From an uncultured Clostridia bacterium (GTDB taxonomy: Bacteria > Bacillota > Clostridia > Oscillospirales > Acutalibacteraceae), in the NCBI GenBank assembly GCA_945988915.1, contig CAMFTS010000003.1, forward strand, positions 1 through 35,127: a stretch of DNA of 35,127 nucleotides, written 5' to 3'. The notes under the pieces were generated by a model. That model searched no databases and had not been told where the DNA came from. It worked only from the letters and a program-made list of their open reading frames with translations. A program made the translations under genes and the position numbers. Below are positions 30,997 through 33,233 of this stretch, piece after piece (positions within the stretch are counted from its first letter, which is position 1; each line of letters opens with the position of its first letter).

Positions 30997-31566
30997 ATGA
31001 GACAATTTTTTTATGTAGTTAAAAACTTTATAAAAATGCTGTATAATTGCAGACCAAATGTATCCTTTGGTTGGATGGTATTCTGTTTATCGACAGCGGT
31101 TGCGGTTTGGCTGTTTGCAAATTATATGAAAAAGAAGGATAAGCTGAAAGATGTTTCTTCTTTTGCGTTGGCAGGATTCATAGGTTATTCTGTTTGGATA
31201 TTTGTTTCTACTGTTCTCTCACGGGAGAGTGTGGAGTATTACAGATACAGCTTTATTCCGTTTTGGTCTTATAGAACTTTGTTCATAGGCGAGAAGAATT
31301 TGTTGCCTGAGATTTTGTCAAACATATTATTCTTCATTCCGTTTGGCTTTTTTGCTTTTGAATTAAAGAAAATACCGACAAAGCAAATAATACTTTTTGG
31401 ATTTTTATTTTCTTGCTTTATTGAACTTATGCAACTGATAACAAAAGTCGGAATGTTTGAGTTTGATGATATTTTCAATAATACGGCAGGAACAGTGTTA
31501 GGCGTGTTATGCGGTATGGTTTTAGATAAAATCAAAGATAATAAAAAAAGAGCTTACAATGCGTGA
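30997..31566 (+). CDS. VanZ-like family membrane protein
   Basis: NLLPEILSNILFFIPFGFFAFELKK...FSCFIELMQLITKVGMFEFDDIFNNTAGTVLGVLCG. Confidence 0.87.
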   Translation: MRQFFYVVKNFIKMLYNCRPNVSFGWMVFCLSTAVAVWLFANYMKKKDKLKDVSSFALAGFIGYSVWIFVSTVLSRESVEYYRYSFIPFWSYRTLFIGEKNLLPEILSNILFFIPFGFFAFELKKIPTKQIILFGFLFSCFIELMQLITKVGMFEFDDIFNNTAGTVLGVLCGMVLDKIKDNKKRAYNA

Positions 31567-31595
31567 GTGTCCAGAGGACACTCACGCAGTTTTAT
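31560..31595 (+). terminator. Strong terminator overlapping the last codons of the VanZ-like gene; end of the polysaccharide operon
   Basis: TGCGTGAGTGTCC - AGA - GGACACTCACGCA (13-bp perfect stem, 3-nt loop) then GTTTTATT. Confidence 0.82.
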
Positions 31596-31761
31596 TCGCC
31601 TTTTGGCGAGTGATATTGCTTCGCAGTTATATAATGCTACGCATTGTGATATTGTCCTTCGGACAGTTTTATGCGAATAAAATAACACTGAAATCGAAGA
31701 TTTCAATATCACTATGCCGAAAAGTGCATAATATCACTCTTTCCGAAGGAAAGAATATCAC
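31587..31761. repeat. Hairpin-array repeat island: short GAA/TTC-loop stem-loops separated by GTGATATT (x2) and AATATCAC (x3)
   Basis: GTGATATT at 31610 and 31646; AATATCAC at 31705, 31730, 31754; stems TCGCC-TTTT-GGCGA, AATGC-TAC-GCATT, TGTCC-TTC-GGACA, TGAAATC-GAA-GATTTCA, CTTTCC-GAA-GGAAAG; recurring CAGTT(T/A)TAT. Confidence 0.85.
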
Positions 31762-31813
31762 TTGAAGTTAAAGGCGCACTTACTCACCACTTTTAGTGGC
31801 GGTGCAAAAAAGT

Positions 31814-31852
31814 AAGAGTTAATGTAGCTTTTTGCTACATTAACTCTTTTTT
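31814..31852. terminator. Bidirectional terminator between the repeat island and the minus-strand NTP transferase-like gene
   Basis: AAGAGTTAATGTAGC - TTTTT - GCTACATTAACTCTT (15-bp perfect stem) followed by TTTTG; A-rich on the opposite side. Confidence 0.9.
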
Positions 31853-31896
31853 GTCCTTTAGAGTACGACTCAAAACAGTAAGCTCTTTTTTCGTGA

Positions 31897-33075
31897 TTAC
31901 ATTCGGGTAACACCCAATCTGCTTAAAAGATCGGTTTCGGATTTTTCGGCTTTTGCCGACTCAAGTACATCGGAAACGCGAATGCCTCTCTTGATGGCAT
32001 TTTTTATCCAATAGAATATTTGATAAATCCATGCAAAAGGTTTCAGGTAAGGATGTGACTTTAACAATTTCCAATTTTTACAACCTTTTTCCTGAGCCTT
32101 CTTCAATCCGACAAAAGGATTTTTAAATGCGGACAAAACAGGAACTGTTGATGATTTTGTACTGTTCTTGTGTCCGAAGTTACCGTGGTCAAGTACATAT
32201 TCCATCAGTTCATCGCAAAGTGCAGAATCTGCTTTACACCAGGATATGTCTTTATCAAGCCCCAGATATTTTTTGCACATAGCGGTAGTTGCAACTGCAA
32301 GCTTTTCCAAGCCTATTTTTTTGGCCGCATCAAAAAACTGCGTATTCCAAAAATCATCGTCAAGATATCTCTCGACATAGCACATCCAGTCGATTACCTG
32401 GCGCAAGCCTATTCCGGTCCTGATATGTTGATTTATGTGTGCAAGCAATACCAAGCCGTTTTCCAATATCGGTAAAGTCGGGAATTCATAGCCGTACAAC
32501 TCCGAGTTCTCTTTTCTGTCAATAGCATTGAAAATATATTCATCAAGAATATCCGACTGTTCAGAATTATCACTTGTAGAAAAATGATCGTGCAGTTCAA
32601 TTTCTATTCCTTGAGCAGAATGAAAGCCTATATGCCTATAATAGTTTTCGGGTGTTTGCTCAGCTTTATATCCGGCATTGCAAAGCATTGTATATGCCGA
32701 GCTGAAATCATCAGGCTTAACAATAATATCAATGTCACCCATACTGCGGTATTCAGGCTGAGGATAATTCATTGCAGCTGCGGTACCTTTTAATATTACA
32801 ACATCAATACCGCTTAATACATTTAACACCTTTTTTTGTTCAGCTAAAATAGAATAAAAAATCTGAATGTTTCTGCCGACAGTCTGAGTGTATTTTGCCG
32901 CCTGTTGCGGACTGATTTTTGCCTTATCTATTTGATTTGCCGGTATAGCGTGTACGCAGTGAGCGATTAACTCATCATAAATATTTTGCCATTCCGATAT
33001 TTCCGTTTCGCCGGAAGTACATTCGTGTAAAGCGTCAGAAAGCAGCTTCAGCATACAAATATTTTCATTTGTCAT
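31897..33075 (-). CDS. Nucleotidyltransferase-fold protein (NTP_transf_5-like)
   Basis: VVILKGTAAAMNYPQPEYRSMGDIDIIVKPDDFSSAYTMLCNAGYKAE...GIEIELHDHFS. ATG 33075 preferred, with GGAGG upstream on the minus strand. Confidence 0.85.
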   Translation of the reverse strand: MTNENICMLKLLSDALHECTSGETEISEWQNIYDELIAHCVHAIPANQIDKAKISPQQAAKYTQTVGRNIQIFYSILAEQKKVLNVLSGIDVVILKGTAAAMNYPQPEYRSMGDIDIIVKPDDFSSAYTMLCNAGYKAEQTPENYYRHIGFHSAQGIEIELHDHFSTSDNSEQSDILDEYIFNAIDRKENSELYGYEFPTLPILENGLVLLAHINQHIRTGIGLRQVIDWMCYVERYLDDDFWNTQFFDAAKKIGLEKLAVATTAMCKKYLGLDKDISWCKADSALCDELMEYVLDHGNFGHKNSTKSSTVPVLSAFKNPFVGLKKAQEKGCKNWKLLKSHPYLKPFAWIYQIFYWIKNAIKRGIRVSDVLESAKAEKSETDLLSRLGVTRM

Positions 33076-33233
33076 TATTTCCTGCACCTCCTACAATGTA
33101 GTATAACTTTAAAGCTTAAAAAAGTCAATGTGAGCGTGATTTGCTTTTAAATCTGCTCTTTTTTTATGCCCTTTTTTATGACAAAATTTTTATTTCGCTT
33201 AATATACAATCAATTCAGAAAGGAATGAGAAAA

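Follow-up and report, generated by a model that had tools for sequence, protein, structure and literature searches.

A Gut-1-like hairpin array in a terminator loop as the probable left part of an IVS-type mobile element

Sequence comparison indicates that the hairpin array studied here, which lies in a window of 35,127 nucleotides (the whole stretch of DNA that was analysed), probably makes up the left part of a non-autonomous mobile element, ~320 bp long and of IVS type, which has lost its IVP gene and sits inside the loop of a host terminator. In complete relatives of this element, short linkers and DNA mini-hairpins form an inverted array that is accompanied by one IVP gene (PF05635/TIGR02436); the window copy has lost that gene and kept the array, the right domain and the terminator. 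Such elements are dispersed in many copies, they occupy terminator loops that are empty in sister genomes, and their arrays are linked to IVP both physically and phylogenetically, while no IVP gene is present in the window copy. New here are an IVS/IVP element that lies outside rRNA, carries a hairpin array and has lost its gene, and the recasting of Gut-1 as belonging to a mobile DNA element; a literature search, with subscription papers outside its reach, turned up no description of Gut-1 as mobile or of IVP elements within terminators.

An earlier sequence-only reading had delimited the array at 31587-31761. The array is indeed there, but the unit is larger: a hairpin lies in front of it, behind it come a right domain and a terminator hairpin, and a 14-bp bracket encloses the whole, which spans 31558-31877. 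This bracket, a perfect inverted repeat, is the split stem of an ordinary bidirectional intrinsic terminator, and the element fills its loop. The features of the locus are as follows.

30997 to 31566, + strand: upstream host gene, VanZ-like (PF04892)
31544 to 31557, no strand assigned: 5' terminator arm AAAAAAGAGCTTAC, outside the element, 14 nt, 100% complementary to 31878-31891
31558 to 31877, + strand: whole element, with limits from the terminator arms and orientation taken from the IVP gene of sister copies
31561 to 31587, + strand: hairpin 0, GCGTGAGTGTCC-AGA-GGACACTCACGC, 12-13 bp; stem sequence varies among copies, shape retained
31587 to 31657, + strand: match to Rfam Gut-1 (RF01706), 58.1 bits against a gathering score of 50
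31590 to 31599, + strand: 5' arm of the long-range stem, TTTTATTCGC, doubling as the 5' side of hairpin 1; pairs with 31673-31682
31596 to 31609, + strand: hairpin 1, TCGCC-TTTT-GGCGA, 98% paired in 21 copies
31610 to 31617, + strand: left linker GTGATATT, copy 1
31616 to 31626, + strand: hairpin 2, TTGC-TTC-GCA; the loop on the opposite strand is GAA
31633 to 31645, + strand: hairpin 3, AATGC-TAC-GCATT, with compensatory changes among aligned copies
31646 to 31653, + strand: left linker GTGATATT, copy 2
31653 to 31665, + strand: hairpin 4, TGTCC-TTC-GGACA
31667 to 31682: central sequence TTTTATGCGAATAAAA
31673 to 31682, + strand: 3' arm of the long-range stem, GCGAATAAAA, closing the left half; 94% paired in 21 copies, with swaps of T-A to A-T and C-G
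31689 to 31705, + strand: hairpin 5, TGAAATC-GAA-GATTTCA, opening the right half, with two-sided changes in 7 of 7 pairs
31705 to 31712, + strand: right linker AATATCAC, copy 1
31713 to 31730, + strand: hairpin 6
31730 to 31737, + strand: right linker AATATCAC, copy 2
31739 to 31753, + strand: hairpin 7, CTTTCC-GAA-GGAAAG
31754 to 31761, + strand: right linker AATATCAC, copy 3
31763 to 31877, + strand: right domain, with a hairpin at 31774-31805 and the end GTCCTTTAGAGTACGACTC...; homologous to the sequence after the IVP stop codon in a sister element (L070)
31814 to 31852, + strand: the element's own terminator hairpin, a perfect 15-bp stem followed by TTTTTT
31878 to 31891, no strand assigned: 3' terminator arm GTAAGCTCTTTTTT, outside the element, pairing with 31544-31557
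31897 to 33087, - strand: downstream convergent host gene, NTP_transf_5 (PF14907), whose end lies 5 bp away from the terminator

The VanZ-like gene has its stop codon (31564-31566) within the element, supplied by the inserted hairpin 0, and thus the insertion altered the last codons of this gene.

The internal plan of the array was confirmed exactly as first observed, with two left linkers (starting at 31610 and 31646), three right linkers (31705, 31730 and 31754), stems of 5-7 bp between them and the central sequence in place. The proposal that the array could fold in either strand also held, with z-scores of -5.85 and -6.31 against 200 dinucleotide shuffles, 0/200 of which folded as well, and so did the proposal that stems vary while shape is kept: 34 cells of the alignment carried double changes, and the covariation score was 0.266 compared to 0.098 for shuffled data (0/500 as high). 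Furthermore, one 5' arm serves both the long-range stem TTNTATTCGCC/GGCGAATANAA and hairpin 1, which were paired in 94% and 98% of cells, respectively. Since both pairings are conserved, the left half has two alternative, mutually exclusive folds.

We determined how widely the element occurs by covariance-model searches with Gut-1, an Rfam family whose description from human gut metagenomes calls it a probable non-coding RNA known from environmental sequences only (PMC2864571). By score and structure, 31587-31657 of the window is a member of this family. The Rfam model, typed as a small RNA, covers only the left 77 positions of what is here part of a dispersed DNA element tied to IVP genes. 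The window's own draft genome (G000; 1.2 Mb, 69% complete) contained 13 matches at E<=1, nine of them below 1e-3, and long matches to the window element were present on three of its contigs (C94, C48 and C54). Among 200 genomes drawn from the host's bacterial family, 92 had Gut-1 matches, with a maximum of at least 22 in one genome; plasmid DNA gave no match to the element. With about ten loci in its own genome and hundreds in the bacterial family, the sequence is therefore multicopy as well as covarying, rather than a single-copy sequence free of covariation. An exact-pattern search was tried as a copy finder and rejected: GTGATATTGYNNCG matched the window copy alone because the linkers drift, which makes pattern search the wrong tool. 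The matches fall into two classes, one with GTGAAAT linkers that typically lies just behind tRNA genes and their terminators, and a second, the window's, with linkers like GTGATATT. At four loci (L042, L049, L055 and L093) a shared stretch, GGTACCGAAYGC...GGTCG, seems to break up the tRNA-like 3' end ahead of the array, close to the T arm, and is possibly another small insert in tRNA genes. In three elements of A type (L103, L038 and L049) the end consists of a conserved GAGTTCGAAGTCATACGC-like stretch and a T-run behind it, which may be a right-end motif.

In several genomes of the genus, copies of the window's class were likewise flanked by complementary arms whose outer ends are A-rich and T-rich, respectively, among them AAAAAGTCGGG/CCCGACTTTTT at C94 of the window's own genome, ACGCTGTCC/GGACAGCGT in G202, AAAACGAGGTA/TACCTCGTTTT in G213 and AAACCACAGTT/AACTGTGGTTT in G207. 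Each copy's own left and right flanks paired better than permuted flanks (0/20000 permutations as good). We then searched 39 genomes of the genus with joined flanks for uninterrupted sites. For four other copies, orthologous terminators with ordinary loops of 4-5 nt were recovered, as the sequence-only reading had proposed to check; the search yielded no such empty counterpart of the insertion in the window itself. The inserts at sister sites measured 319-408 nt, and the filled and empty pairs were these.

G202: ACGCTGTCC-[319]-GGACAGCGT (GCTGTCC[319]GGACAGC) versus ACGCTGTCC-TTTTC-GGACAGCGT in G229; further empty loops TTAAA or AAAC in G203, G216 and G217
rpoD terminator: CCCCGTACC-[379]-GGTGTGGGG versus CCCCGTACC-AATT-GGTACGGGG in G213
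L078: GACCAGTC-[328]-GACTGGTC versus GACCAGTC-TTTC-GACTGGTC in G211
L068: CGAGGTA-[324]-TACCTCG versus a GAAA loop in G211

A fifth pair (L083/G218) could be aligned only roughly. The check for target duplications that had also been suggested turned out negative, with no clear or fixed duplication visible at the filled and empty pairs. A MITE of a DDE transposon was accordingly rejected, as these pairs show no consistent target duplication. Most window-type copies without IVP were located between convergent genes; no orientation is claimed for them, and an orientation count for A-type elements gave no reading since both strands show inverted arrays. Insertion of IVP-coding window-class copies into terminator loops was not supported, and those checked sit outside split terminators.

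The partner of the array is a gene of ~117 codons, into which the same array runs straight in C54 of the window's own genome and in G207 and G202. It belongs to the family PF05635/TIGR02436, the 'four helix bundle protein' of 23S rRNA intervening sequences, with solved relatives 2rld and 2gsc and named relatives from Clostridia, Oscillospiraceae and Ruminococcus MAGs, mostly of ruminant guts. Genome-wide, ten Gut-1 cores preceded a same-strand IVP profile match by 139-181 nt. The right domain of the window element aligned with the sequence after the IVP stop codon of L070 with a score of 52 against a shuffle maximum of 40 under milder gap costs, whereas the direct alignment under strict gap costs was not significant; with L068 as an intermediate, the scores were 68 (shuffle maximum 39) and 110 (shuffle maximum 48). 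This homology makes the window copy an IVP-less derivative, which relates to its IVP-carrying relatives as a MITE does to its transposon.

We also assessed the linkage across 75 usable IVP loci from public genomes, scoring an array wherever a 7-mer occurred at least twice per orientation, segregated to the left and right of a centre. Inverted linker arrays flanked 63 of the 75 loci compared to 8 of 226 control windows taken elsewhere in the same loci (p 3e-43). On a tree of 107 IVPs, the nine linker families, which we defined from the sequences and whose clustering is helped by near-copies, required 9 changes, with a minimum of 8 and 54.3 after shuffling, a nearly perfect fit. This shows that array and IVP form one stable unit, although co-inheritance without binding could alone give the agreement between linker and IVP. 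IVP was present in 75 of the 92 genomes with Gut-1 compared to 21 of the 108 without, in a set of genomes that are not independent. A cognate-class IVP was absent from the listed loci of G213 and G211, and none at all was seen in G217 and G227; such carriers may reflect loss, draft gaps or another driver. The earlier suggestion of a protein-binding array is plausible, with the IVP four-helix-bundle protein as the likely partner.

To judge whether the hairpins act as DNA or RNA, we compared 321 linker-delimited hairpin units with 362 terminator hairpins of the same loci scored alike. Pairs in the array units were Watson-Crick in 1698 cases, G-U in only 4 and of other kinds in 83, so that G-U made up 4/87 of the non-Watson-Crick pairs compared to 82/246 in terminators (82 G-U, 164 other; p 1e-8), a depletion that may stem in part from the short stems. 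Triloops were found in 194 of the 321 array hairpins versus 81 of the 362 terminators, of which 219 had four-base loops, and 198 of the 321 array hairpins had TNC or TNNC loops, which read GNA or GNNA on the other strand. Mini-hairpins with GNA/GNNA loops are exceptionally stable in DNA (PMC4686876). Together, the scarcity of G-U and the GNA/GNNA loops point to DNA rather than RNA hairpins, and read as selection on, or mutational origin in, folded single-stranded DNA, an argument that the short stems weaken somewhat.

These data bear on two other explanations. Gut-1 could be a functional trans-acting or 3'-UTR RNA whose copies are paralogous RNA genes kept for the RNA, and the structured-RNA suggestion of the sequence-only reading is right in so far as the array matches Gut-1 above the Rfam threshold. 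The strong two-sided covariation, the two exclusive pairings, which could serve as a switch, and the position of the array in probably transcribed 3' regions would fit an RNA as well. We nevertheless consider it unlikely, given the many dispersed copies with empty orthologous sites, the near absence of G-U pairs compared to terminator hairpins of the same loci, the predominance of triloops, which mirror each other in sequence between the two halves, and the linkage to a protein of mobile insertions. Alternatively, palindromes might be amplified by template switching with no mobility machinery and later kept as termination or mRNA 3'-end modules. Template-switch correction would yield perfect palindromes without G-U, the element has a terminator of its own and is located at terminators, and the prevalence of IVP-less copies between convergent genes agrees with such a role; however, near-identical element bodies at unrelated terminators and the tight link between linker class and IVP clade are left unexplained, making this account very unlikely.

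Under the preferred reading, an IVP-dependent mobile element, IVP would recognise its own linker and GNA-loop hairpins as folded single-stranded DNA. Bound to exposed single strands, it could hold the two inverted halves together and help insertion into a hairpin loop, and copies without IVP would have moved in trans. Insertion would prefer the loop of a hairpin, here a terminator and elsewhere the tetraloops of rRNA, and would do little damage there, since the stem can still close and a terminator comes with the element itself.

Neither a Y1 transposase nor a reverse transcriptase was consistently present in the genomes that carry window-class copies. REP/BIME sequences place a conserved short linker on the 5' side of a hairpin and occur in inverted orientation. 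The window's unit plan resembles theirs in its linker and hairpin units of opposite orientation, its intergenic position and its proximity to 3' ends, so a Y1 (RAYT/IS200-IS605) transposase recognising linker and hairpin might have moved it. However, no Y1_Tnp was found in the 69%-complete draft genome or in G217, G226 and G214, the latter three with window-type copies; stems differ between units and copies by two-sided changes, unlike the stems of REPs; and the neighbouring gene encodes IVP, not RAYT. A REP/BIME origin is therefore highly improbable. The original suggestion of a REP- or MITE-like element stands as to a dispersed, non-autonomous mobile element, but transposon-type ends, a clear target duplication and, in the draft genome, a Y1 (RAYT) were all missing. 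As a whole, the interpretation offered with the original observation is partly supported.

A reverse transcriptase acting in trans might instead copy element RNA into loops, as IVP and Avd of diversity-generating retroelements are reported as likely homologous, and retrohoming requires Avd, to which PF05635 is similar (PMC10053308). We give such retro-mobility very little probability: RVT_1 was absent from the window's draft genome and from G202, G213, G217 and G225, of which G213 is 97% complete and has several window-type copies. Group IIC introns prefer intrinsic terminators, a preference shared by the element, which differs in being inserted within the loop. A group IIC intron was rejected, as RVT_1 was absent from G000 and G213 and scanning the window against Rfam gave no intron family.

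The closest known counterparts of the element are the IVSs of 23S rRNA in Coxiella, Leptospira and others. IVSs replace small rRNA tetraloops and may carry S23p/IVP, and that of Coxiella has tandem heptamers before the gene; known for more than 25 years, they are described as unclear in function and origin, and proposals include that they derive from mobile elements and that the ORF takes part in mobility (PMC4990558). PF05635 is still termed functionally uncharacterised (PMC11270868). As in rRNA IVSs, the insert at the window lies in the loop of a pre-existing hairpin, evident from the split arms and the empty loops of sisters; in both, inverted repeats close the insert, fuller copies carry the same protein family and short tandem repeats precede the gene. 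Unlike them, the window element targets an intrinsic terminator, lies between the VanZ-like and NTP_transf_5 genes rather than in an rRNA gene, has an array of mini-hairpins and linkers, and encodes no S23p/IVP.

The data suggest a widespread class of elements, with rRNA IVSs as one instance, and would explain an orphan Rfam family. IVP gains a testable candidate ligand, a clade-specific linker with a GNA-loop DNA mini-hairpin, and if the protein alone suffices for mobility, this would be a new mode of moving DNA with built-in targeting of safe sites, the terminator loops. It is possible, though we hold it more tentatively than the reading of the window element, that rRNA IVSs, Gut-1, terminator-loop inserts and the inverted tandem-repeat islands that surround 'four helix bundle' genes across several phyla make up one superfamily of minimal mobile elements, in which a single non-enzyme-like nucleic-acid-binding protein would recognise its own linker in folded mini-hairpins of single-stranded DNA and bring about hairpin-loop insertion without a known transposase, recombinase or reverse transcriptase.

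IVP genes with arrays were also seen in other settings. On plasmids of Nostoc, Treponema, Bernardetia and Planktothrix they lie between clear inverted tandem arrays, and on those of Chlorohelix and Monoglobus between shorter ones. The array-flanked genes of the Monoglobus, Planktothrix and Chlorohelix plasmids (L236, L238 and L239) sit amid restriction or defence operons, with hsdS/hsdR, drmD/MmeI and helicase/N-6 methylase as neighbours, respectively. Arrays such as TAATTCGTAATTCG and CCCCAATCCCCAAT (L235 and L238) resemble the short heptamers repeated in tandem that have been known for many years from cyanobacteria, and which may be IVP-element arrays. A putative phage contig from the gut, recorded as 'Bacteriophage sp.' (L233, MT835815.1), carries a window-class array, apparently behind a tRNA end, and an IVP 73% identical to that of the window's own genome. 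Immediately upstream of tmRNA-like genes are four further IVP elements (L088, L096, L109 and L110), whose arrays are of the AATTCGTAATTCG / CGAATTACGAATT kind, and another class of IVP element (L090) is located between gyrB-like and gyrA-like genes.
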